This document shows, piece by piece, positions 13,680 through 59,595 of a stretch of 64,000 nt of DNA. Position numbers and translations under genes: made by a program. This DNA is from Natronobeatus ordinarius (lineage in GTDB: Archaea; Halobacteriota; Halobacteria; Halobacteriales; Natrialbaceae): contig NZ_CP101456.1 in assembly GCF_024362485.1 (NCBI RefSeq), positions 3,472,001 through 3,536,000 on the forward strand, written 5' to 3'. How positions within the stretch are numbered: the first letter of the stretch is position 1; each line of letters begins with the position of its first letter. The notes beneath the pieces are model-generated. The model searched no databases, was not told the origin of the DNA, and saw only the letters and a list, made by a program, of their open reading frames with translations.

Positions 13680-14204
13680 ATGGACCATCTCGACGAGATC
13701 TCCGTCGAAGAACTCCAAGACGCTCTCGACAGGGTTGAGGAGAACAAGCCGACACAGCGGTTACTAGCGGCGATCGCGTACAAAAACGGCGTTACGCAGA
13801 CCGAACTTGCAGAGTGGCACGACACCGGTCGAAGAACGATCTACAGCTGGCTCATGCGACTCGATACGGACGAACCGTTTGAGCAAGCCGTTTCTGATGC
13901 TCACCGCTCCGGAAGAAACCGGAAGCTCTCAGAAACACAGCAGGAAGAATTCGAACAAACCGTTCACGAACCTCCCAAGGAAGTCGGGATCGACGCGCCG
14001 GCGTGGACGCCGGCGCTCGTCCAGCAATATCTTGAGGAAACCTACGATGTCGAGTACTCAATCCCGAGCTGCCGGCGGTTACTCAAAGAAGCGGGATTGA
14101 GCTATCAAAAACCACGCCGTACAGCCGCCGAATCTGATGCTGACGAGCAAGAAACCTTCCGCGAAGAGTTCAAAAAAAGCGGCGGGAGATGGACGCCACA
14201 GTAG
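13680..14204 (+). CDS. IS630 transposase, first frame (DNA-binding part)
   Basis: The 174-residue product is the N-terminal half of an IS630 transposase: a helix-turn-helix (NGVTQTELAEWHDTGRRTIYSW), a second winged-helix-like part (WTPALVQQYLEETYDVEYS) and the start of the linker to the catalytic domain. A run of seven A (14172-14178) near the end, read TTC AAA AAA A, is a classic slippery site. A -1 shift there joins it to the next frame as EEFKKKRREMDATVVCIDQ, giving one full-length enzyme of about 330 residues. The unshifted product ends GGRWTPQ. Confidence 0.88.
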   Translation: MDHLDEISVEELQDALDRVEENKPTQRLLAAIAYKNGVTQTELAEWHDTGRRTIYSWLMRLDTDEPFEQAVSDAHRSGRNRKLSETQQEEFEQTVHEPPKEVGIDAPAWTPALVQQYLEETYDVEYSIPSCRRLLKEAGLSYQKPRRTAAESDADEQETFREEFKKSGGRWTPQ

Positions 14205-14680
14205 TCTGTATCGATCAGACCAAGAAATCCGTGCAAGTCGAGCCGCGTGCCGCGTGGTTTCCTCGCGGCACGCGGCCGGCCGTCGAATTATCCGGCCAAC
14301 GCGACTGGACGTGCCTGTTGGGCGCGATCACCGAAGACGGTGATCGCTTTTTCGCTCGATTCGAAGAGTACGTAACCGCCGAACACGCCAAACATTTCAT
14401 TCTTGCATTATGCGAAGAATTTGCAGATGATTTGCTCATCGTGCTGGATGGAGCGTCGTATTTCCAGGCGTCGGCCGTCACGGACCTGGCGGCCCGTGAC
14501 GACCTCGACTTCGTCACGTTACCGGCGTACTCGCCAGAGCTCAATCCTGTCGAGGAGTGCTGGAGACAACTCCAAGCCGCTCTCAGCAACCGTTTCTTTG
14601 AGTCACTCGACGATCTTACAACGGCGATTGATACAGCTCTTGACCAGATCTCTATACCAAAAGTGAGCAATTATTTCTAA
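14189..14680 (+). CDS. IS630 transposase, second frame (DDE catalytic part)
   Basis: The 163-residue frame overlaps the first by 16 nt. It holds the whole DDE core: first Asp in TVVCIDQTKK, second in LLIVLDGASYFQA and the Glu in LNPVEECWRQLQ. It is most likely translated by -1 frameshifting at the A7 run upstream rather than from its own ATG, as is usual for this family. No stop codon or missing catalytic residue is visible, so this copy is probably able to move and could mobilise the related MITEs near 52.6 kb. Confidence 0.88.
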   Translation: MDATVVCIDQTKKSVQVEPRAAWFPRGTRPAVELSGQRDWTCLLGAITEDGDRFFARFEEYVTAEHAKHFILALCEEFADDLLIVLDGASYFQASAVTDLAARDDLDFVTLPAYSPELNPVEECWRQLQAALSNRFFESLDDLTTAIDTALDQISIPKVSNYF

Positions 14681-15186: not shown

Positions 15187-16536
15187 TCATTCTACAGCTT
15201 CTTCGAGAATTGTTCTCAACTCTCGTTCCAATTCAGAAGTTTGGAGGATCGCGATTTCCCGATCGGATTGCTCCTCGAGTGACGCGGTCTCCTCCTCAAG
15301 ATCCTGAACCACCAGAAGCCCGTTCCACCCAGAGCCGAAGTAGTCTCCGTCCTCGTGGCCGAAGACGTACTCCTTGTTAACACGAAGGAACGCGAGGTAC
15401 TCGAGTGTCTCCTTAACACCCCGTCGAATCGTGTCCTCGTTGGTGCTGTTCTTCACCTCGACGATCAGGTACTCGTGCTCGTTCTCATCCTCCGAGATGA
15501 TCTCGAGGACGATGACGTCGGGACGACCGGTGTGGTTCCGGTAGTCTTTTTTGAAGTAGTTGCCGGCGACCTCTTGAGCAATGAGTTGCACCTGATCGGT
15601 TCGGGAAGGGTTGTCCTTGTCTTCGTCTGGGACGGCGACGAAGGAGAGGTCACGATCTCGAGCGGAGTTGTCGTGATAGAGGACGATCTCTTTGTCACCG
15701 TCGAAGCGGGCGACTTCCTGGCGGTCGGTCGCGATCGTCTTGAACTGCGGCTGACTCTCTCGGAGGTCCTCGAGTGTGGCCACGAAGCGGAACAGGACGA
15801 ATAGCTCGAACAGCGAGTCGGTGTCGTCCGGTGCGATGGCGGTTTGCTCGAGCAATCGCCGGATCTCCTCGGGCTCCCCTCGAAACAATCGCTGACGTGA
15901 TCTGAGTAGCGAGGCCGCATCTCGATACACTTCGTGGCGTGAATCGGCAGCCGTGGTCAGCATCCGCTCGGTCGGCTCGTACGTATCGGGATCGCGAATC
16001 CGTCGGACGTGGACGTTCCGCTCGACGATCCGTTGCAGTTCGTCGATCAGGTTCTCGCTTCCCTTCCAGGTCTCGCTCACCCAGTCGTAGTCCGCTCGAA
16101 GGTACTCTTCGGCCTCTCGAGTCGTCCGATGGATAACGGAGATGAGTCGCTTGAGAACGAGGTTCTCGGGGATATCGTAGTTCACCGAGCGGTTGTCGCA
16201 GACGAAAATTGAGTTGTCCTGTGGGTACTGTGAGTGGCGCTTCTTGATCGTCTCTCCCCAGTTGATCCGTCCGTCGACGGTCCCGCGTCTCGTACGGGAG
16301 GTCGTCCGGGTTTCGGTTCGGATGCTTCGCAGATGCTCCGGCAGCGTTCGGATGAACTCGACGACGTCGTCCTGGAGGATGAAATGGAGGTCGAGCAGGA
16401 GTTCGTACTCCTCGAAGCGCTCGTCTAGTTGCTCGGGTTTGATCGAGCGGGCAAGTTCTCGCTCCGGGAACGAGCCTCTCATCGCGTAGGCGAGGATATC
16501 CTCTGTGAGGTGCTCGAGGAGTTCGTCCCTATTCAT
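15187..16536 (-). CDS. PD-(D/E)XK nuclease, McrC-like partner
   Basis: The 449-residue protein has a helical N-terminus and a C-terminal nuclease core: acidic Asp in TGRPDVIVLEII (about residues 340-351) followed by EYLIVEVKNS (about 362-371), the D-(E)xK arrangement. It overlaps the McrB-like gene by 8 nt on the same strand, so it is almost certainly the cleaving subunit of that system, in the position of McrC. It is not a standard McrC by sequence; the N-terminal part (IRRLLEQTAIAPDDTDSLFELFVLFRF) resembles DUF2357/McrC-type linkers. It should cut DNA when the GTPase is bound to modified sites. Confidence 0.78.
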   Translation of the reverse strand: MNRDELLEHLTEDILAYAMRGSFPERELARSIKPEQLDERFEEYELLLDLHFILQDDVVEFIRTLPEHLRSIRTETRTTSRTRRGTVDGRINWGETIKKRHSQYPQDNSIFVCDNRSVNYDIPENLVLKRLISVIHRTTREAEEYLRADYDWVSETWKGSENLIDELQRIVERNVHVRRIRDPDTYEPTERMLTTAADSRHEVYRDAASLLRSRQRLFRGEPEEIRRLLEQTAIAPDDTDSLFELFVLFRFVATLEDLRESQPQFKTIATDRQEVARFDGDKEIVLYHDNSARDRDLSFVAVPDEDKDNPSRTDQVQLIAQEVAGNYFKKDYRNHTGRPDVIVLEIISEDENEHEYLIVEVKNSTNEDTIRRGVKETLEYLAFLRVNKEYVFGHEDGDYFGSGWNGLLVVQDLEEETASLEEQSDREIAILQTSELERELRTILEEAVE

Positions 16537-19500
16537 TCTGAGTGGAGAGGGGAACCTGGAGCATCTCTCGGGCTGCGCCCTCGAGGAGTACGGTGTCGAT
16601 ATCCGGAACGGCGGCGAGTTCCCTGACGATCGTCTTGCGTTTTGGAACCCCCTCTAACTGCGGGAATATGTAGCTGATGACCGCTTGGGTGAGGTGGTAT
16701 TTGAGGTCCTCGTCGGGATGGTGGCTGACGTATCGGAGGACGTCTTCGATGATCGCTGGCCCGATCGCCCGTTCATCGACTGCGGTATTCGCCGTTCGCC
16801 AGACGCGACCGACTGCGCCGGCTTCTCGACGCGTAATATCGAGCTCCCAGGCGTCCGCGTAGTCAAAGATGACATCCTCGACAGAATCGTCGGATTCCGT
16901 TGCCTCCGGGAGCGTCGGCGCTGGAACGCGCACGAATGCGAATCGACGCATGAACGCGTAACTCATCTCGTAGAGTGATGTCTTGTCGTAGGCGTTCATC
17001 GTCGCAAAGATCCGCCAGGAGTTGGGCACGACGTACTGGTTGCTGGCTGGCGTTCCGTCGACGTCCTCGTAGGTGGTCAGTTCGACTTCGTTCCCGTCGA
17101 CGGTATAGGGAAGCTGGACGGACTGGCCCGAGAGGAGCGTGAAGAGCTGGCCGAACGCTTTGTCGATGTCCGCACGATTGAGTTCGTCGATAACGAGCAG
17201 ATCGTTCGCCTGCGTGCCTGTTTGGGTGTTCTTGAGGCGGTTGAGAACGATTCCGGGTTTGAACGAGAGGTTGTCGTCCTCTGTGGACTCACTCGGCATG
17301 TATCCGCCGACGGTGTCGAACGTCGACCAGTCGGCAGTGGCCGTGGTCATCTCGAATCCCGAGTAGAGATATGGATGTGATTCCGTGAGGTGCTCACAGA
17401 CGCGTTCTGCGATTTCGGTTTTCCCTGTTCCTGGCGGGCCCGTGAGGAGGATGTGTTTTCCAGATCGGAGTGCCGTCGAGATCTGCTCGAGGATCTTCTC
17501 TCCGAGATCGTCTTCGAAGTGGAGGCCCTCGAGGATGTCCGTCGGAAGCGTACTCTGGAGTGGCTTGTGTGGGTTGATCGGTGAGACCTCGGTCAGGTCG
17601 TCGGCCATGGCGTCGAGGAGTGCCGTTGGACGGTCGTAATCTATGTTACCATCATCCGTGCGGAACGTTCCGGAACTCGACTGGACGGGGAATCCCGTTC
17701 CGGAAGCGGCCACACAGATCTGATTTGCCTCTTCGATCGGCAAGCAGTTTGCCGTCAGTGCGTCGAGTTCCTGCTCGAGTTCTGCAGTCTCTTTCTCCGA
17801 GGTTCCACGTGTGGTGTCAATCTGAGCGATATCGCTTGTGAGGAATAACCGCTCGAAACTCATGATCATCGAGTACTCCTTTCTACCGTGATGTTCGTCC
17901 AACCACCACGGGTCAGATTTCTCGAAGGTCTCGCCGATAATCCCTACTCCAATGACTCCACTGGGCTGATTCGTGAGTTCGGTATTCGATGGTTCGGCTC
18001 GAGAGTGCAGAAACGCGATGTCACCTTTCTCGAGGGTATTCCATCGATTTTCGTGGTCCGGCTCGAACGCAGCCGATGCGAACTCAACTGTCGTGAGCCA
18101 GTAATCCGGCGGCGCGGTGAACTTGTGGACCGTTGGCTCCGTGGTCTCGATCTGAGTCGCCAGTGGGTGATCCACGTTCGGTGATGATTCTGGTCGTTCG
18201 TCGGGTGTCGTGTAGCTGTCGGTCAGGACACTGTTCAATCGGGGTTGGCTGAGCGGTCCTGATAGGTCTAACTCGTCTTGGATGAGACGAACTCCACAGA
18301 GGAACAGCGTCTGAGCGGGTGTGAACGCATCGAGCGTTCCGATCCCGAGGTCATCGGCTTTCGCCTCTAACTCCGACTCGAGGCGTTCGTACACACGGCG
18401 GATCTGATCGAGTTTCGCGGCGGTGTCGGGGGAAACTTCATCCGACGGTAGGAATCCCGTGAGGGCGTCAGACCAGTCTTCGATGACGGTCCTGCCGATG
18501 CGGTTTTTCAACCACGGCTGCTCGTCTTCTGCGTGGGTTAGCCTCGAGCGGACGTCCTCGAGTGCGTGCTCGAGGGAATCGTACTCGGGGATGGTGTCGC
18601 TATTGTCGGGGTAGAGTTGCCGGCCCGTGATCTGGTTGATGAACTCCTCGACGGAGTCGTATTCGTCGTAGAAGCTCGAGTCGGTCCGATCGAAGTTGAT
18701 GGCACTGTAGGTGTCGTTCGGCCAGCCCTTGAAGCCTAACGTGGCCCAGAACTCCTCCTGGTTGAGTTCCGCTTCGTAGAGTGGCTCGAGGAAGAGGATG
18801 TGAGGGAAGATTTCATCGGTGACCTCGCCCCAGCCGACTGCGTCGGTGAATTTGGATGCTCTGTCGCGGTCCAACACCGTTGCGTGATTTACACGCGCGA
18901 CGATGGTGTACTCGCCGTCTCTCCGTCCGTTGCGATCGGCGAACAACAGGTAGTCGCCTTCGTCGGCGGCTTCGTCCTCCTGGTTCCCCCATACCCGAAG
19001 GGTGTCGTGTTCGATCGGAGGATCGTAGATCCCTTCCAGCTGCTCCCGTGGGACGCCCTCGAGTATCGTGCGATCGAAGTTCGTTCGAATCGGCCCATCG
19101 CCGGTCTTCACGGGGACCTGGTAGACAGTCGGATCAGTGAACTGGCTGAGGTCGGTGTTCGTCGAGTTGGAACCAGTGTCGAGTTTTGGCGTGGAGATGG
19201 GTGTGGAGCCGATGTCGACCGGGGAGAGTTTGAATCGAATCCCCTCTCGGAGGTTTCCTTCGGAGTCCGGGAGTTCCTCGAAGAAATGGCCGGCGTACAG
19301 ATACTGGCCAATGTACCGGACGCCCTCATCTTCCATCGTGAAGAAGTGGAGCTCGCGGCCTTCCTCGAGGTGGTTTCTGATCGTGCCGTTTCCACGTTTC
19401 ATCTCCATGTCGCCGACCTGTCCTTCACCAGTGTAGATCACTGTCCCGTCCGGACGGATCGCGTCTTGGTAGCCGTGGTCTTCGCCAGTGCCACCGCTGA

Positions 19501-20158
19501 ACAGGAAGACGACTGGTTCATCTCTGGACGGGGCGATTCCACCCTGGATGCTGCCGCCGTATTCTGTGTGGAGCTCACGGCGGTTGTAGATCGTGTTCGG
19601 TTCTAGGTCTACGGCGGAAACACCTTCGAGTTGGTCGGCGAGTTCTTTTCCGTCGGGGGTGAGGTGGGTTCGGTCGTTCCTTCGTTCGACGTAGCCGAGA
19701 ATTTGTAGCCACTCGCGGTGTCGTGTTGCGACCCCCGGCGTCTCCATCTGGCACTCCTCGAAGGTGTTCACGAGCACCTCCATGAGGTCCTCGTCAGTTC
19801 TGGGCTCGAGGGCTACCGCACGGAGGATTGTATCGAAGCCTTTGACGGATGTTCGGAGGGCATTGTAGAGGACGATTGGGTCTCGATCCCTGAGATACCA
19901 GCGGCTGATCTGTGTGCAGGTGTATACGTCGTTCTGTCTTTCAATGAGGCCGAGTTCTTCGAGGAAGTTCAGGCGGTCTCCGACTGCACCCGGTGCTGTC
20001 GCATTCGTGTTGGAGATGATCCAGTCGATGACTTCCTCTTGTGGAATCCCTGCGTCGTTCTGCTGTGCAAGGTAGGAGAGTAAATCGGTAAAAACCCCCA
20101 ACCGATCCTCGATGTCACCGTAGAACCGAACGGTAGACATCCGGCGCTCGTTTGTCAT
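16529..20158 (-). CDS. McrB-like AAA+ GTPase with SRA-like and EVE-like DNA-reading domains
   Basis: The frame is open to 20176; the ATG at 20158 fits a leaderless start (TATA about 30 nt upstream). The 1209-residue protein has several modules. They are a winged-helix N-terminus (10-180); a segment at about 195-320 with YGGSIQGGIAPS, VIYTGEGQVGDM and HFFTMEDEGVRYIGQY, matching the ScoMcrA-type SRA domain that reads modified bases; and a PUA/EVE-like stretch at about 390-465 (GDYLLFADRNG, YTIVARVNHATV). A second EVE-like stretch lies at about 680-780 (DYWLTTVEFA, KGDIAFLHSRA, GVIGVGIIGETFE), and the AAA+ motor at about 900-1090 has Walker A GPPGTGKT, Walker B LLVIDELNRAD and MRRFAFVRV. With the overlapping nuclease it forms a modification-dependent restriction system. 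The domain names for 390-465 and 680-780 are inferred from pattern. Confidence 0.85.
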   Translation of the reverse strand: MTNERRMSTVRFYGDIEDRLGVFTDLLSYLAQQNDAGIPQEEVIDWIISNTNATAPGAVGDRLNFLEELGLIERQNDVYTCTQISRWYLRDRDPIVLYNALRTSVKGFDTILRAVALEPRTDEDLMEVLVNTFEECQMETPGVATRHREWLQILGYVERRNDRTHLTPDGKELADQLEGVSAVDLEPNTIYNRRELHTEYGGSIQGGIAPSRDEPVVFLFSGGTGEDHGYQDAIRPDGTVIYTGEGQVGDMEMKRGNGTIRNHLEEGRELHFFTMEDEGVRYIGQYLYAGHFFEELPDSEGNLREGIRFKLSPVDIGSTPISTPKLDTGSNSTNTDLSQFTDPTVYQVPVKTGDGPIRTNFDRTILEGVPREQLEGIYDPPIEHDTLRVWGNQEDEAADEGDYLLFADRNGRRDGEYTIVARVNHATVLDRDRASKFTDAVGWGEVTDEIFPHILFLEPLYEAELNQEEFWATLGFKGWPNDTYSAINFDRTDSSFYDEYDSVEEFINQITGRQLYPDNSDTIPEYDSLEHALEDVRSRLTHAEDEQPWLKNRIGRTVIEDWSDALTGFLPSDEVSPDTAAKLDQIRRVYERLESELEAKADDLGIGTLDAFTPAQTLFLCGVRLIQDELDLSGPLSQPRLNSVLTDSYTTPDERPESSPNVDHPLATQIETTEPTVHKFTAPPDYWLTTVEFASAAFEPDHENRWNTLEKGDIAFLHSRAEPSNTELTNQPSGVIGVGIIGETFEKSDPWWLDEHHGRKEYSMIMSFERLFLTSDIAQIDTTRGTSEKETAELEQELDALTANCLPIEEANQICVAASGTGFPVQSSSGTFRTDDGNIDYDRPTALLDAMADDLTEVSPINPHKPLQSTLPTDILEGLHFEDDLGEKILEQISTALRSGKHILLTGPPGTGKTEIAERVCEHLTESHPYLYSGFEMTTATADWSTFDTVGGYMPSESTEDDNLSFKPGIVLNRLKNTQTGTQANDLLVIDELNRADIDKAFGQLFTLLSGQSVQLPYTVDGNEVELTTYEDVDGTPASNQYVVPNSWRIFATMNAYDKTSLYEMSYAFMRRFAFVRVPAPTLPEATESDDSVEDVIFDYADAWELDITRREAGAVGRVWRTANTAVDERAIGPAIIEDVLRYVSHHPDEDLKYHLTQAVISYIFPQLEGVPKRKTIVRELAAVPDIDTVLLEGAAREMLQVPLSTQNE

Positions 20159-20185
20159 TGTTTCGTAACAGGACACAGGTACTTC

Positions 20186-20193
20186 TTATAAAT
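20186..20193 (-). promoter_or_regulatory. TATA box of the mcrB-like operon
   Basis: ATTTATAA on the minus strand, 28-35 nt before the ATG at 20158, is the normal position for a leaderless haloarchaeal mRNA. This spacing is the main argument for preferring that ATG over the one six codons upstream. Confidence 0.5.
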
Positions 20194-20290
20194 CCTATCA
20201 AGAAGCCCGAAATGGTGTAACGTGAGGATGTTATTCGCGGATACATGCTGTCGATCCGGCTATATCAATGATCTCGTATGTAATGAAAGG

Positions 20291-44494: not shown

Positions 44495-46336
44495 TTACGC
44501 GTCTTGGGTCTCCTCAGGGCCGAATTTATCAAGCAGGTCTTCGATGATTAGTTCTTCGCGCTTCTCAATGAACTCTGGGAAGTTCTCTAATTGGTGAAGG
44601 TCCTCGTTCTGCGGGATATGATGCTTTTCGAAGTAAGATTCATCTTGTGATTTAAGCCACTCGAGGAAGGACTGCCCACTCTTCGACCGGTTTTCGTTCT
44701 CGTTTAGGAGCTGGAGATTCCCAGGTCGGTCCTTGAGTTCGGTGTATCGTTCTGCCTCTATGGAGTCTAACCCGTAGTTCTGAACTAGTGTTTCTGTATC
44801 GAATTGGTCCTGCGGAAAGATGTGGTCGACATCGTGGCGAGTGTTGCTCCGCGCTGGTCCGGGGTGGTACAGCAGTGAGAGGAAAGAGAAGATCTTTCGA
44901 CTCCCGTATTCGAGGCTGTCGAGTTGCAGTTCCAGTAGGTCGCGGTCGAATCTGGAGACTCTACCATCGCTCCGGAGTTCGCGGTGGATCTCGTCGCCAG
45001 GGAACGTCATAGCAGGCGCAGTCTGCATCAGTGACCGCGCCCGTTCGATAGCACCTCGACCGACGGAAAATGTCCCGTTGAGAATCGACGTACAGAGCCA
45101 CTGGTGAATCTCTTCTCGAGCCGAAATTTCCTCGTGACCGCTACTCCATTCGAGGTTTGGGTTGTCGTTGGTATAGAAGAAATACGCAATCGGAACCAAG
45201 GCATTCCGACTTGTAAGGCTGCGGGAGTCAAGTCCGAAATCAACGACGAGGTCAACGGCATTTCGTACCGCCTGCTGCATCTTGCCGTTATCCGTCCAAG
45301 TCTGCTTCATCTTCTGTAGGTTCGACTGGTTGAAATGGCGAACAGACTCAGAGGTCGGTAAGTCGGAACACATCAGAAGATTTCGGAGGGCAAAATCGAT
45401 ATCGAAGCTAAAGCCGGCATCCTGTCGTCGACGATTGAGGTCATCAATGAACTCCGTGATCTCTTCTCGAGCGTTGATGGCGTCTGCTCCGCTCCCATTT
45501 GCCCATTGAGCAGTCGCAATCGAGAGCAGGACTTCGGATGTACTAAGTTGGGTTCCGCCACGATTCGTTCGAATGAACATATCGAGGACTTTCCCTAGGT
45601 CGTCCTCTTCTTTCTCGTCGTAGTTGATGAGACTACGCTCGTGAACAGCACGATAGAGGGAGGTGAGATTCTTATTGATGAACTTCCACTGGGTGGGATG
45701 GTGGATCTCCTGCTCGGAGAGTTCAGCATCAATCTCTTCAGTGATATCATGGATGCCGTCGTATTCGTTGAGTTCGAGGATGTCCTTGACCCGATACCAG
45801 TATTCGGCCTCGGACATCTCGGGATCCGTTTTAAACTCGAACTCATACCTCATCTTGAGGTCGTCGTCGCTAATCTCGTCAGGGTCGGAGAGGACGTTGA
45901 GATAGAGCTGCTTTCGGTCCCATGCGTTCGGGTTGGTTCGATGGCGGTGTTTCTGCTTAGTCGTCAGTGTTCCCTGTAATCCAATGTAGAGCGCGGTGAG
46001 TCGCTGTTGGCCGTCGAGGACTAGCTGAATCCCGTTAGGGACGTCCTCGTAGTCTTCGACCTCGGGATTACGGTGGTGGACGTTCCCTAAACTCTCCGGG
46101 TGGACCGGATCTGTGACGTAATGTTGAACGAATTTGTACTTAATTTGCTCTTGGGCGAGGTCACCCCGAACGCGCCAAAAGAGGAGAGACCCGATTGGGT
46201 AATCTCGAAGGATCGAATCGAAGAGTTGGATGATTTGTTCTTCGGTCCAAACGAATTCTCGTTGGATAGCGGGGACGAAGGTCGCCGTATTGAGTTCCTG
46301 AATGGCGTTGGCGATAGTTTTAGATTGGAAGCTCAT
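44495..46336 (-). CDS. DUF262/DUF1524 restriction enzyme, GmrSD/BrxU-like
   Basis: The start at 46336 (MSFQSKTIANAIQELN) matches family starts; a GTG at 46363 is also open. The protein has about 613 residues. The DUF262 part has PAIQREFVWTEEQI and the ParB-like nucleotide motif LVLDGQQRLTALYIG near residues 105-119. The C-terminal DUF1524 part has the HNH-type motif RHDVDHIFPQDQF near 505-515 and a later NENENRSKSG. This single-chain layout is that of GmrSD and BrxU, NTP-dependent nucleases that cut DNA with modified (for example glucosylated or hydroxymethylated) cytosine. Near a BREX locus it would cover phages whose DNA modification evades PglX-based recognition. Confidence 0.88.
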   Translation of the reverse strand: MSFQSKTIANAIQELNTATFVPAIQREFVWTEEQIIQLFDSILRDYPIGSLLFWRVRGDLAQEQIKYKFVQHYVTDPVHPESLGNVHHRNPEVEDYEDVPNGIQLVLDGQQRLTALYIGLQGTLTTKQKHRHRTNPNAWDRKQLYLNVLSDPDEISDDDLKMRYEFEFKTDPEMSEAEYWYRVKDILELNEYDGIHDITEEIDAELSEQEIHHPTQWKFINKNLTSLYRAVHERSLINYDEKEEDDLGKVLDMFIRTNRGGTQLSTSEVLLSIATAQWANGSGADAINAREEITEFIDDLNRRRQDAGFSFDIDFALRNLLMCSDLPTSESVRHFNQSNLQKMKQTWTDNGKMQQAVRNAVDLVVDFGLDSRSLTSRNALVPIAYFFYTNDNPNLEWSSGHEEISAREEIHQWLCTSILNGTFSVGRGAIERARSLMQTAPAMTFPGDEIHRELRSDGRVSRFDRDLLELQLDSLEYGSRKIFSFLSLLYHPGPARSNTRHDVDHIFPQDQFDTETLVQNYGLDSIEAERYTELKDRPGNLQLLNENENRSKSGQSFLEWLKSQDESYFEKHHIPQNEDLHQLENFPEFIEKREELIIEDLLDKFGPEETQDA

Positions 46337-46362
46337 TGTCACGATACTGGTGTGACCAGACA

Positions 46363-46550
46363 CTAAAATACTCCTGTTGAAGACTGTTGATCGGGTTTCA
46401 CAAATCCTCTGTTCCCGATAGTCTCGCTCAAGTAGCCAAGAAATATCGAGTCACATTCTTCATCGACGTGGTTCACGTTCCAAAGGCCTGATCCGCGGAT
46501 TTTCTTGCTTCGACTATAATTTCCGAGCTAATTATCTGAGCGTGAGTCAT
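46363..46550 (-). pseudogene. Two short coupled or frameshifted frames before the GmrSD-like gene
   Basis: On the minus strand MTHAQIISSEIIVEARKSAD to TGA at 46473 overlaps (GTGA) a frame from 46476 reading VNHVDEECDSIFLGYLSE to TAG at 46363. That TAG in turn overlaps the GTG at 46363 of the nuclease gene. The two pieces read well as one 60-residue protein with a one-base shift. They may be a small upstream gene or a decayed one; no family recognised. Confidence 0.3.
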
Positions 46551-54067: not shown

Positions 54068-56656
54068 GTGCCATTACGAGAAGCACGGTCAATCGATCAG
54101 CTCTATTCGAGGGTTGCTGAGTGCGACATTGCGCTTACTGGTGAAGCACCCCTTGCACTCGCACTCGATAACCGGGTGCAAAGCCCTCGAATCGGCCGGT
54201 TGTCGGCTACACCGCGAAGCTATGCCGTCCAGGAGATGTTTCCCGATGACATCCGACCGCTCTTTTTCGAAATCGTCGCACAGACGGATCTCTCGTGGAA
54301 GCAAGCAGTGAGAGCACTCGAGCTGTGTATCGATTGTTGGACAGCGACGGGCGACCGTGAACAGATACTCGAGTATCCTGAGTTCAACAACCTCACTATC
54401 CAATCAGTGGTCGGGATGCTGGGAGAACTCGAGAGCAGCTATCGGGCTATCGAGCGCACGACGCTCTCATCGGAGCAAGAGATTGCGGTAATTGACGAAG
54501 CTCATCTGTCCGATCTCGACCGAAAACTCCTCCCTTCTGATGGGTACGAGACCTATTCGTCGCTGGGCGAGACTCATGTTCCCTTCCCCGAGCTACACAT
54601 CTTCCCATCAGCGACAGCAATCGTCTCGGCAATCGTCGACCAGATTGATCCAGACACAGCGGATCGATTTGGAATCGTTCTTGCCGAGGGGAGTCTGTAT
54701 AGCGCGTTGATCGAGTCTGCCCTCGAGGCAAGAGAAATTCCCTATCGCGGTGGACCTGGGTTCGAGGACGATGACGATGTGCGGGCGTTTTTCCGACTCC
54801 TAGAAGCGACATTTTCGGGATCCGACCAGCGAGTCGCAGAAATTCGGCCGGTGCTCACGACAGCCGGAATCGACCTTTCCAGAGATATAGAAGAACAACG
54901 GGTGGATTCACTTGGACCAGATCAACTTGGAGTCTACGTTGAGTTCCAGGAGGCCGTCGACGAAGGAACGTTCCGCGATGTCGTATCGATGTACGAGTCG
55001 ATCAGTGGCACCCAGTTAGCTGAACTTCGACGCGAGCTTCAGAACCTTGGAATACTTAACAATATTGTAACAGAAGATCGCGTTTCGCGCTTCCGGTACT
55101 ATCTCGATGCGTTCACTGTTCCAACGGACGGAGATACTACTGATGGGGTTCTCTTGGCAGATGCGACGTCCACAGCATACGTTGACCGGCCTGTCGTTTT
55201 CTACGTCGGTCTGGGCCCGGAGTGGGCACAGAGCCCACCAGACTATCCCTGGATTGACCGGGAAGCATACTTAGAACGCGACCTCGAGCGATTCGAGCGA
55301 TTGCTCCAGAACGGGACACAACGGTACTATTTCGTCCAAGAGACGCAGGCCGGCAGCGACGTGACTCCGTGTGTGTATCTGCGGCGACTCCGTGACGAGC
55401 CGTTTGACTCATTCGGTGATCTTCCACATACACAATACGGCGGACACACGACCTCATCTCTGACGTCGCCGTTTCCTGAACCAGACGATCCCCCGACACC
55501 ACCCCAACGCATAGAGACGATTAGTCAATCCCGACTGAAAGCCCTCACAAATTCGCCTCGAGATGCGTACTTCGATCGATTGGTCCAATCGCCGTCGTCA
55601 GTTCACATGGTTCGCGGAACGCTTCTCCACGAGGCCGCTGAGATTTACGTTTCCGATCCATCGATACTAGAGGACCAGCGTGGTCGCGTGCTTGACGCGA
55701 TGTGTGAGCGGTTGAACCCATACCTAGGTGACTCGAAGCAAGCCGTCCAGCGAACGTATTTGGAGGTTGGACTCGATGCGATCACGGCGTATCTGGACGA
55801 AAACCCGCCGGCGGAAGGAAGCTACGAAACCTACGATCACCGGGACCACGAAAACGAACTCGCTACCGAACTCGGTGTCGAGTGTGACTCACAGCTAACA
55901 GAACGCTGGTTCGCATCGCCGTCGATCGGAGTTCACGGGTACGTCGATTTGGTCCAGAGCGAAACCTCGATCGTCGATTACAAGACCGGGAACAAAAAGG
56001 ACGCTTCGGACATACTCGAGGCGGCATCGATCGATCCGGTCGATGAGTACCCCAATTTTCAGGCACTCGTCTATCTCGCCAAACATCGAGAGGAACGGCC
56101 GGATGAGCGCCTCGAACTCCATTTCATCCATCTGCTCGACGGGGTCGATGAAGCCCTCACGGGATCACCGCCCGATCTAGCAGATCTTGTTACGACGATC
56201 ACCTACGTTCCAGCGACGTTTAGCGAGTTCGTCGCGAGCCGAGATACCTTCGAGAGTGTAACTGATTATGCCGATTCGAACAAGCGGTGTCGGGCGTTGC
56301 ACCCGCTCGGGTACGAAGCCTACAGGGACTTTTTCGAGACTCACGAGCTTCCCCGAGCTGGAGACGATCCCGAACAACGGGCGACGATCACCGAGGAGTT
56401 CGTCGCCTATGCCCAGGAGCGCGTTGGCGAATACAAGTACGTCCGTCAAGGCTGCGAGAAGGTGATCGAGGATCTTGACGATGTACCGACCGGATACGTC
56501 CTGCAATCGGACCTCGATGCGTTCGAGGCGTTCGTCGACGAGCAACTCGAGGCCCTGAACGAGTATCGAAACAGTCGGTTCCCGGTAGCCTATCGGGAGG
56601 ACGGACCGACTTGGGACCGCGTCGATCATCGAGACCTCATACTCACAGACCGATGA
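54068..56656 (+). CDS. AddB-like PD-(D/E)XK nuclease protein
   Basis: The 862-residue product starts at GTG 54068; no better ATG exists nearby. The body resembles the inactivated helicase of AddB-type proteins (FGIVLAEGSLYSALIESALE, VVFYVGLGPEWAQS). The C-terminus is a RecB-type nuclease: TLLHEAAEIYV, then GVHGYVDLVQ and TSIVDYKTGNK (catalytic D and D-x-K at about 623-640), then YPNFQALVYLAKH. There is no Walker A, and the iron-sulfur cysteines of bacterial AddB are not evident. The stop overlaps the following helicase by 4 nt, so the two form one enzyme that unwinds and degrades DNA ends, comparable to AddAB/RecBCD. Confidence 0.8.
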   Translation: MPLREARSIDQLYSRVAECDIALTGEAPLALALDNRVQSPRIGRLSATPRSYAVQEMFPDDIRPLFFEIVAQTDLSWKQAVRALELCIDCWTATGDREQILEYPEFNNLTIQSVVGMLGELESSYRAIERTTLSSEQEIAVIDEAHLSDLDRKLLPSDGYETYSSLGETHVPFPELHIFPSATAIVSAIVDQIDPDTADRFGIVLAEGSLYSALIESALEAREIPYRGGPGFEDDDDVRAFFRLLEATFSGSDQRVAEIRPVLTTAGIDLSRDIEEQRVDSLGPDQLGVYVEFQEAVDEGTFRDVVSMYESISGTQLAELRRELQNLGILNNIVTEDRVSRFRYYLDAFTVPTDGDTTDGVLLADATSTAYVDRPVVFYVGLGPEWAQSPPDYPWIDREAYLERDLERFERLLQNGTQRYYFVQETQAGSDVTPCVYLRRLRDEPFDSFGDLPHTQYGGHTTSSLTSPFPEPDDPPTPPQRIETISQSRLKALTNSPRDAYFDRLVQSPSSVHMVRGTLLHEAAEIYVSDPSILEDQRGRVLDAMCERLNPYLGDSKQAVQRTYLEVGLDAITAYLDENPPAEGSYETYDHRDHENELATELGVECDSQLTERWFASPSIGVHGYVDLVQSETSIVDYKTGNKKDASDILEAASIDPVDEYPNFQALVYLAKHREERPDERLELHFIHLLDGVDEALTGSPPDLADLVTTITYVPATFSEFVASRDTFESVTDYADSNKRCRALHPLGYEAYRDFFETHELPRAGDDPEQRATITEEFVAYAQERVGEYKYVRQGCEKVIEDLDDVPTGYVLQSDLDAFEAFVDEQLEALNEYRNSRFPVAYREDGPTWDRVDHRDLILTDR

Positions 56657-59595
56657 CTGAAATCTCACCAAATCGGGAGCAAGAAACACTGATTGAACAT
56701 ACCGACGGGATTTATCTCGTCGATGCCGGCGCGGGGACGGGCAAGACGTTCACCGTAACGCACCGGTATGCCAACATCCTCGAGAAACCGGACATCGAAC
56801 CAGAGGACGTCCTTTTGGCCACCTTCACGCGGAATGCTGCTGCAGAGATGGCCGATCGGATCGCTCGCCAGTCCCCATACGACCCCGTCCAGTTACAGGA
56901 CGCCCCGATTAGTACGTTTCACGGCTACTGTTATCAGCTGCTTCGACGCTATGGGCACGAAATCCCGGCCGAAATCGGGATTGACGACCAGATTCCACAA
57001 TCACTCGAATTGATCGAGGATGGGATTCGGGAGGGAGAGCTGTTCAATACGTTTATCACTCGTTTCGAAGACCGTCACCCCGAATACGAGCACCTTTTCG
57101 CAGCGCTGAACGATCCCAGTACTCTGCGCTCGTTGATCGCCGAACTCGCTGCGAAAGGCGTAATCCCTGAACGCGACGGCTGGTACCGAGATACCGGCAC
57201 CCCGCTTTTCGGTGACCGGGAGGCGTTCATGGATCTTGTCGAACGGGAGAATCAACCCAACGAGGGGGCAAACGGTCCCACACAATCCGATGCACGTTCG
57301 TCAGTAAGTGGGTGGGATGCAACTGAATACGTTCCCGATGCACCGACAGCCGACGAGATCGTCGGGTACCCACAGCTTCACACTGAACCTGTCGAGCAGG
57401 CCTTCGACGAGGACCGGGAGGACTTACTTGCCTTTGTACACGACGTCTATTTCGAGTACCTCGAGTATGCGCTCGAGCGCAACTACCTCACGCAGGGACT
57501 CATGCTCGCGATGGCGTTCGTGATGCTGTGTGAGGATGCGGCGGTTCGCGAACGGGTTCGCCACCAGTACGTCATGGTCGACGAATTCCAGGATACCAAC
57601 GAGTTACAATTCAAGCTCACGCTGCTCCTTGCTGGTGAAAATAACATCTGCGTCGTCGGAGATTGGAAACAGAGTATCTACGGATTCCAGTATACCACGG
57701 TCGAAAACATTCAGAATTTCGAGGAGCGAATCTCGCGATACAAGGCGGAATTGAATCGGGACGAGACTCGAGTCCAGTATGCCGTCGACGAGGTCGAGAC
57801 GATACCACTGAAGAAGAACTACCGATCTACGGAATCGATTCTCTCGCTGGCGACGGAGACGTTGACAACCCCAGCAACGAACAGTGAGTCCCTGAATGCA
57901 GAGGAAATAGAGAGCGAGATCACGCCACTCGAGGCCACGAGCCGCGTTGATAACAGCAACATTCAGGCGGTTACCAACGAAGATGAACTCGAACTGCTCC
58001 TCGACCGAATACAGCATGTCGTCGGAAACGAGGACTACAGCGTCGAGGTACGGGACGAACCAGCCTCGACAGCAGAGATGTCTGTGGAGGAGCAAGCAGC
58101 TGCTGAACGAGAACGGCTCGGTGCCCCATCGTATAGCGATATCGCCGTCTTTACTCGAACTCGATCGTTTGCTCGTGACTTCCTCGAGAAGGCAGACGAG
58201 TACGGTATTCCGATCGCGTACGAAGGTGGGGTGGAGTTATTCGATACCGATCAGGCGAAGCTTCTGTTAGCATGGCTTCGGATTTGCGAATCGAACGATC
58301 AACGAGGGTGGGCGACCGTTCTGGAAGAAGCTGGATACACACTCTCGCACGCTCGTGAGATCCTCGAGGCCGAACAGTATCCCGACGCAATGGTTACGTT
58401 TCGGGACTCCTTGCGCGAGTGTGAGACCATCGGCGGGTTTGCCCGAATTGTCTTCGACGAATACGGGTACGACGGAGCGTATGCAAACGGCTTACTCGGT
58501 GAACTCACGGGTATGCATGAGACGACACTTGCAACCCGGGGCGAGGCAATCACCTACATAGAGGAACACCTTGAGGCCGGATCCACGATCGAAATAGATT
58601 CGAGCCCGGGCGAGGATTCCGTCACGCTTCAGACGATACACAGTGCGAAAGGATTGGAATACCCGATCGTATTCTGTGCGAACATGAATCGGCGAGCATT
58701 CCCGCATTACGGGCGACCATCGTCAGGTACGATCCAGTATCGGGAACCGATCGGGCTCAGACAACGATCCATCTACAGCGAGGCGAGCGGTCGACCCTAC
58801 GTCCACAAACACTGGCCGTACGATCTTCTCACCGGCTGTTTGCCATCGAAATACGATGAAGAGCGTCGACTCTTCTACGTTGCGGTGACTCGAGCGAAGC
58901 GACATCTGTTCCTCACAGCTGGTGACTCGCCAAGTCCGTTCTTCACCGAACTCCCGCTCGAGCCGATCGAACTTGAACCATCCGTCGACACCGAAACCGA
59001 ATATCGAGAGGACGAGGTGCCGTTTTCAATCACGCCCCCCGAACGAACGAAGCCTCGGCGGATGAGCGTCCACGACATCATGGATGATAGCGTGTACGAA
59101 GAGGTCACGGAAGGACGAGGGACGGAGTTCGGGGACGCGCTTCACGAATTCGCTGAGGAGTACGCACGAGGGAACGACCCCTCACCGAGTAATGATGACC
59201 AGGAACGCGTAGCGACGCTCCTTGATACGCTCGACGGGAAATTCAAACCGGAAGTTACGGCGATCCTTCCCCTGGATTTGGATCCACAGGTTACCCTCGT
59301 CGGCATTATCGATTTACTCGTAATCGCGCCAGACCGGATCCAGATTATCGACTACAAGACGGACCTCTCCCGCCATGCAGAGGCCGAATACAGGAAACAG
59401 ATTAGCGTCTATTATCACGTTGCAGCCGAGCAGTACCCAGACCGCACTATCTCGATCAGTGTCTTCTATACTGCCGATAACGAGCGCGTAGAAGTATCGC
59501 CGCTCACGCTCGAAGATCTACAGGAAATGACAACATCCGCAATTGAGCGTGAGGCGATCTTCCCTGAGGAAGTGCAAGAAGTTTCACTTGAGTGA
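56653..59595 (+). CDS. AddA-like UvrD/RecB-family helicase-nuclease
   Basis: The ATG at 56653 (MTEISPNREQ) overlaps the previous stop; 980 residues. Superfamily 1 helicase motifs are complete: LVDAGAGTGKTFTVTHRY (about 22-39), ATFTRNAAAEMADRI, VMVDEFQDTNE (about 306), GDWKQSIYGFQ, TLQTIHSAKGLEYPIV and RRLFYVAVTRAKRHLF. A C-terminal nuclease follows with VTLVGIIDLLV, IQIIDYKTDLS (about 894) and RKQISVYYHV. This is the layout of AddA. With the AddB-like partner it can resect DNA ends. The position next to Fic and plasmid-type genes suggests a mobile, defence-linked copy. Confidence 0.85.
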   Translation: MTEISPNREQETLIEHTDGIYLVDAGAGTGKTFTVTHRYANILEKPDIEPEDVLLATFTRNAAAEMADRIARQSPYDPVQLQDAPISTFHGYCYQLLRRYGHEIPAEIGIDDQIPQSLELIEDGIREGELFNTFITRFEDRHPEYEHLFAALNDPSTLRSLIAELAAKGVIPERDGWYRDTGTPLFGDREAFMDLVERENQPNEGANGPTQSDARSSVSGWDATEYVPDAPTADEIVGYPQLHTEPVEQAFDEDREDLLAFVHDVYFEYLEYALERNYLTQGLMLAMAFVMLCEDAAVRERVRHQYVMVDEFQDTNELQFKLTLLLAGENNICVVGDWKQSIYGFQYTTVENIQNFEERISRYKAELNRDETRVQYAVDEVETIPLKKNYRSTESILSLATETLTTPATNSESLNAEEIESEITPLEATSRVDNSNIQAVTNEDELELLLDRIQHVVGNEDYSVEVRDEPASTAEMSVEEQAAAERERLGAPSYSDIAVFTRTRSFARDFLEKADEYGIPIAYEGGVELFDTDQAKLLLAWLRICESNDQRGWATVLEEAGYTLSHAREILEAEQYPDAMVTFRDSLRECETIGGFARIVFDEYGYDGAYANGLLGELTGMHETTLATRGEAITYIEEHLEAGSTIEIDSSPGEDSVTLQTIHSAKGLEYPIVFCANMNRRAFPHYGRPSSGTIQYREPIGLRQRSIYSEASGRPYVHKHWPYDLLTGCLPSKYDEERRLFYVAVTRAKRHLFLTAGDSPSPFFTELPLEPIELEPSVDTETEYREDEVPFSITPPERTKPRRMSVHDIMDDSVYEEVTEGRGTEFGDALHEFAEEYARGNDPSPSNDDQERVATLLDTLDGKFKPEVTAILPLDLDPQVTLVGIIDLLVIAPDRIQIIDYKTDLSRHAEAEYRKQISVYYHVAAEQYPDRTISISVFYTADNERVEVSPLTLEDLQEMTTSAIEREAIFPEEVQEVSLE

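Follow-up and report, generated by a model that had tools for sequence, protein, structure and literature searches.

The window, a stretch of 64,000 nucleotides that forms part of a contig of 4.08 Mb in a haloarchaeal genome, carries two neighboring genes on its minus strand. The larger one (16529..20158; an open reading frame from the ATG at 20158) encodes a 1209-residue McrB-type motor with stacked reader domains, called P0001 below. The smaller one (15187..16536) overlaps it by 8 nt and encodes a 449-residue PD-(D/E)xK nuclease in the McrC position. The full-length P0001 protein is present in 10 other genomes at 61-82% identity, with its start, RRMS/T-x-RFYG, kept in these genomes as well. 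The named best relatives in the plasmid and genome collections belong to Natrialbaceae, e.g. Natribaculum, Natrarchaeobaculum and Natronorubrum. An intact-looking type 5 BREX locus (20268-42710) with BrxA, BrxC, BrxB, BrxC, PglX, PglZ and BrxHII runs divergently from the pair, and the 109 bp that separate the two sets of genes by their coordinates (20159..20267, no strand) presumably contain the promoters of both. On the side of the nuclease gene that faces away from the motor lie transposase-like open reading frames in two overlapping frames (13680-14680), which are probably a single IS element. A GmrSD-type (HEC-05) gene at 44495-46363 constitutes a second type IV-like system of the same island, and at 54068-59595 a UvrD-helicase/nuclease gene comes after a PDDEXK_1 nuclease gene, the two resembling an AddAB/RecB-type pair.

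The C-terminal part of P0001 (16544..17521, minus strand) is, judging by its sequence, clearly an McrB-type AAA+ motor, as the sequence-only reading had proposed. The C-terminal 330 residues match AAA_5 with an E-value of 6e-17, EcMcrB in the PDB with an E-value of 7.5e-14, and the E. coli McrB model with an E-value of 2e-15, the latter match being well below the equivalog cut-off of that model. The Walker A (GPPGTGKT, residues 908-915) and Walker B (D991-E992) motifs are intact. The McrB signature, which has the consensus MNxxDRS (PMC7680126), reads MNAYDKT here, with the N and D kept and a Lys in place of the Arg, and both residues of its NxxD core, N1055 and D1058, are invariant.

The separate nuclease that was expected to accompany the motor is the product of the next gene. 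Its assignment to the PD-(D/E)xK class is by motif, G-R-P-D-x19-E-V-K, of which D340, E360 and K362 are invariant in 16 relatives. The 449-residue protein itself has no Pfam match, none of the solved McrC structures matched it, and the McrC N-terminal domain DUF2357 was detected in one of the 16 relatives as a weak match (E-value of 0.0098). The gene adjoins the motor gene in 30 out of 30 genomes examined, where the relatives show 60-91% identity. Hence, the nuclease fills the place of McrC. These features also bear on whether the protein could be a CoCoNuT-like McrB that targets RNA or has a regulatory role. YTH-like domains, one of which is described below, occur in CoCoNuTs (PMC11090510). 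However, the signature of P0001 is NxxD and not NxD, and the PD-(D/E)xK residues of the partner are intact, which makes such an identity hardly credible.

Upstream of the motor, P0001 contains five segments, two of which, the winged helices at the N-terminus and a helical part further on, had gone unnoticed in the sequence-only reading. Two winged-helix domains span residues 14-180 (19619..20119, minus strand) and were modeled by AlphaFold with a pLDDT of mostly 70-88. The second of them (residues 94-180) matches RosR/MarR with a Z-score of about 10-12, residues 7-287 match FokI (Z-score of 10.0 over 204 residues with an rmsd of 5.0), and the BpuJI recognition domain was matched to the winged helices by Foldseek with an E-value of 1.5e-3. 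Since the winged helices of several type IV enzymes read m6A (PMC11037411), those of P0001 are possible candidates for readers of either m6A or sequence. Their resemblance to the segments with which FokI and BpuJI recognize DNA would also suit an NTP-dependent enzyme that restricts at specific sites, the sequence being chosen by the tandem winged helices (cf. the B3 domain of LlaJI) and the other domains being secondary. We consider this very unlikely, as many relatives lack the winged helices and, apart from PglX of BREX, no gene for a dedicated methyltransferase intervenes in the pair or directly flanks it.

The winged helices are followed by an SRA domain (residues 181-320; 19199..19618, minus strand), the identity of which is firmly supported by both sequence comparison and modeling. 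The motifs EGQVGDM and GGSIQGG, from which an SRA-like domain of the ScoMcrA kind had been proposed, are present and lie within it. Residues 172-333 of P0001, combined with 15 bacterial and archaeal relatives into a profile, match ScoMcrA in the PDB with an E-value of 1.2e-7, and Pfam SAD_SRA matches nine of the 16 profile members, P0001 itself not being one of them. The AlphaFold model is fair in this region (pLDDT of about 61-87 by blocks), and the structural search suggested for this segment returned the SRA fold: the SRA domain of SUVH5 with methylated DNA (Z-score of 12.8), ScoMcrA (12.4) and TagI (11.7). In TagI, Gln35 is thought to fill the space of the flipped base, Tyr55, Asp58 and Tyr67 to form the pocket, and Ile38 to be near the methyl group (PMC6212794). 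By their spacing, we infer that Q205, I208, Y230, D232 and Y242 of P0001 take the matching places, with the carboxylate of D232 positioned at Tyr+2, one residue earlier than the Tyr+3 of TagI. All five candidate flipping and pocket residues are conserved in 16 relatives. Phosphorothioate DNA had been listed among the possible targets, but the alignment of ScoMcrA with P0001 is confined to its SRA part and leaves out its sulfur-binding domain. This idea was therefore dropped.

The next segment (residues 340-490; 18689..19141, minus strand) was more difficult to place. Comparisons of shallow profiles among the readers were weak, and so were the matches of the shallow profiles A2 and A3 to McrB of Thermococcus gammatolerans (TgMcrB), with A2 alone giving an E-value of 0.2. 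In haloarchaeal McrBs of about 530 residues, the same domain is the sole part N-terminal to the motor. The deep profile A10, which combines A2 with these proteins, matches the TgMcrB N-terminal domain (6p0f) with an E-value of 9.3e-9 and full-length TgMcrB with an E-value of 1.1e-7, no other match having an E-value below 0.8, and W390 of P0001 belongs to the shared WG motif. Residues 340-490 are thus firmly assigned, through profile homology, to a YTH/EVE-like domain related to the N-terminal domain of TgMcrB, the YTH fold of which is reported to target 6mA (PMC7680126).

Residues 525-655 (18194..18586, minus strand), delineated by an AlphaFold run and by comparison of loci, form a helical part that was not found in the relatives L022 and L025-L028. 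The remaining segment (residues 660-835; 17654..18181, minus strand) adjoins the motor in every locus compared. We assign it as EVE-like with moderate confidence from profile-profile comparison, the slot it shares with other proteins, and its fusions. Related McrBs (L064-L066) have a Pfam EVE domain in the matching slot, and residues 660-835 can be aligned with it through a W-containing N-terminal segment, a GD motif and a C-terminal FP motif. The deep profile of this segment matches EVE with a profile-profile p-value of 1.3e-4. Among the controls, 60 EVE profiles with shuffled columns reached 0.014 at best, and values of 0.08-0.42 were obtained with the SRA, motor and nuclease profiles. When the deep profile is compared with PDB sequences, the EVE protein PH1033 comes first, at a non-significant E-value of 0.26. 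The AlphaFold run over 880 residues was poor beyond residue 315, and the segment modeled alone was also poor (pLDDT of 48). The top Foldseek ranks of this latter model are EVE proteins with non-significant E-values of 0.18-0.38, and its Z-score against 2eve is 2.2. We did not use structure matches from these poor models as proof. As P0001 does not reach the curated Pfam EVE cut-off, the domain is named EVE-like only.

The EVE-like domain is also found fused to a nuclease, PD-(D/E)xK-like by motif, in proteins of 373-391 residues (L124-L126). These are candidates for an unnamed one-chain type IV enzyme, and PADLOC run on L124 gave no match. L064-L066 are haloarchaeal McrBs in their own right, with one or two reader-like segments before the Pfam EVE domain that lies beside the motor.

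The sequence-only reading had envisaged one or two EVE/PUA-like domains, at residues 385-470 and 675-790, and two kinds of reader in one McrB chain. The first of these domains is well established by the deep profile, and the second is moderately supported. Structure modeling of the proposed reader segments confirmed the SRA fold and gave a low-confidence model of the EVE-like domain. The coexistence of two reader kinds holds firmly for the SRA and YTH/EVE-like domains, and the EVE-like domain adds to them with moderate confidence.

A comparison of relatives shows that the readers are exchangeable modules while the motor and nuclease stay. Relatives L012-L020 lack the winged helices and the SRA domain. 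In L023, L024, L029 and L030 the part before residues 500-525 is replaced, L029 retaining a distant winged-helix part. The block of two winged helices and SRA is also found on HNH proteins of 434-495 residues (L056, L057, L059, L060 and L062; the HNH domain was recognized by Pfam in L057 and by eye in the other four) and on a 1600-residue McrB from another motor clade (L058). The latter protein (L058 378-5177) carries a longer reader stack, with apparently three or four further PUA/EVE-type segments. A second winged-helix and SRA copy at L061 3226-4308 is broken by internal stop codons in a genome that also has an intact system. In a tree of the motor and nuclease, the SRA label needs four changes, at least three of which are forced by well-supported branches. 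Across 292 genomes of the class there are about 41 strong matches to the SRA profile, of which about nine are on McrB-type chains and the others on shorter proteins. Viral contigs scanned with profiles A1, A2, A3 and A9 contained no relatives, and a scan with A6 found one McrB only (37% identity). Each module is the sole obvious reader of some other enzyme: the winged helices with SRA in the HNH nucleases, the YTH-like domain in the McrBs of about 530 residues, and the EVE-like domain in its fusion to the PD-(D/E)xK nuclease.

The architecture of P0001 is real: the domain identities follow from sequence and fold (moderately for the EVE-like domain), and the gene pairing and module exchange are observed directly. 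We believe that the two genes probably encode an McrBC restriction system of type IV, which depends on modification, and that its readers form a modular stack. By analogy with the respective families, the motor would form a GTP-driven hexamer and thus a ring with six copies of the reader array, consisting of two winged helices, SRA, YTH/EVE-like and EVE-like domains. The functions of the readers are predicted from homology and from enzymes in which each module has no other obvious reader beside it. The SRA domain would hold 5-methyl- or 5-hydroxymethylcytosine after flipping it out, N6-methyladenine would probably be bound by the YTH-like domain, the EVE-like domain may bind another modified base, and the winged helices may add sequence context or a preference for m6A. 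Incoming modified DNA, bound by one or more readers, would load the motor, and translocation would then lead to cleavage by the conserved nuclease in the McrC position. Swapping of readers would widen or shift the range of modified viruses and plasmids that are restricted.

An alternative is that a single stacked domain senses modification, the remaining ones having a structural role or binding DNA non-specifically, in which case one mark is read. In the related haloviral enzyme HHPV4I/HhiV4I, the winged helix senses m6A whereas the SRA-like domain is reported not to sense modification (PMC11037411), which means that the presence of an SRA domain is not proof of reading. The EVE-like domain, always found beside the motor in the P0001 family, could serve the motor instead, since the structural elements that immediately precede the AAA+ core of McrB contribute to recognizing guanine (PMC7680126). 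However, the pocket-type residues of the SRA domain are conserved, and for every module there is another nuclease or McrB in which it is the sole obvious reader. We therefore regard a single active reader as unlikely.

If several readers are active, the simplest inference is that they act as alternatives (OR logic), because the same motor and nuclease persist in relatives that lack the SRA or the YTH-like domain. The methylation of the host complicates matters. PglX of the neighboring BREX locus is a predicted adenine methyltransferase and the second contig of the host, C2, carries two C5-methyltransferase genes. Simple targeting of 5mC or m6A could hence attack the host unless the sequence context differs. 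Such a setting would suit a coincidence detector (AND logic), in which two readers, or one reader and the winged helices, must meet nearby marks for cleavage to occur, and host DNA with BREX m6A or 5mC alone would be spared. We find this improbable, as the SRA or YTH-like module is lost in relatives that retain the system and BREX was not found beside the orthologues examined. The absence of BREX genes from the flanking DNA of these orthologues also led us to drop a functional link between McrBC and BREX. On a plasmid, BREX and type IV restriction have been described as complementary (according to a title cited in PMC12707154). Carriage of a C5-methyltransferase was rejected as a feature separating SRA carriers (1 of 11) from YTH-only carriers (1 of 14). 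In its most extensive form, our interpretation is that one McrB chain would read modified cytosine through SRA, N6-methyladenine through the YTH-like domain and a third mark through the EVE-like domain, while the winged helices supply context. A single motor would then restrict viruses whose DNA modifications differ, or a required coincidence of marks would spare the methylated genome of the host. This might be the case, and we propose it tentatively.

Parts of P0001 resemble several known systems. As in E. coli McrBC, an McrB motor is followed by a PD-(D/E)xK nuclease gene, but E. coli McrB reads with DUF3578, which was not found in the 1209-residue protein. TgMcrB has the same kind of AAA+ motor and a related YTH-fold reader, yet it is a 613-residue protein with this one reader, to which P0001 adds two winged helices, SRA and an EVE-like domain. 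By fold and family, the SRA domain of P0001 belongs with those of the SRA-HNH modification-dependent endonucleases ScoMcrA and TagI, but here it is joined to an McrB motor, no HNH being among the families matched in the chain and no sulfur-binding domain being recognized. In EVE-McrB fusions, as far as the passages of PMC7641849 describe them, an EVE-type reader directly precedes the motor as in P0001, and additional domains are common. The EVE-like domain of P0001 differs in its divergence, and two further PUA-superfamily readers precede it. Pairs of NTD-wH-NTPase and McrC have been noticed but not characterized (PMC11037411), and they too have a winged helix upstream of an McrB-like motor with an McrC-like nuclease. 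P0001 instead has tandem winged helices followed by SRA, and its winged helices are possible m6A readers. The specificity domains of canonical McrBs are described as small, modular units (PMC11090510). The passages found in two surveys describe no SRA-McrB-EVE chain, which is not proof of absence, and none of the literature passages describes an McrB that combines an SRA with a YTH-like and an EVE-like reader. A search of the open-licence literature found no paper on a haloarchaeal type IV McrBC.

Descriptions of type IV enzymes usually give them a single specificity domain. The stacking of SRA, YTH-like and EVE-like domains and their swapping between close relatives make it testable whether such readers act independently, additively or in cooperation, and the module exchange offers ready-made natural deletions for these tests. 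Furthermore, the P0001 family provides a way to study how hosts with methylation of their own, by BREX and C5-methyltransferases, avoid self-attack.
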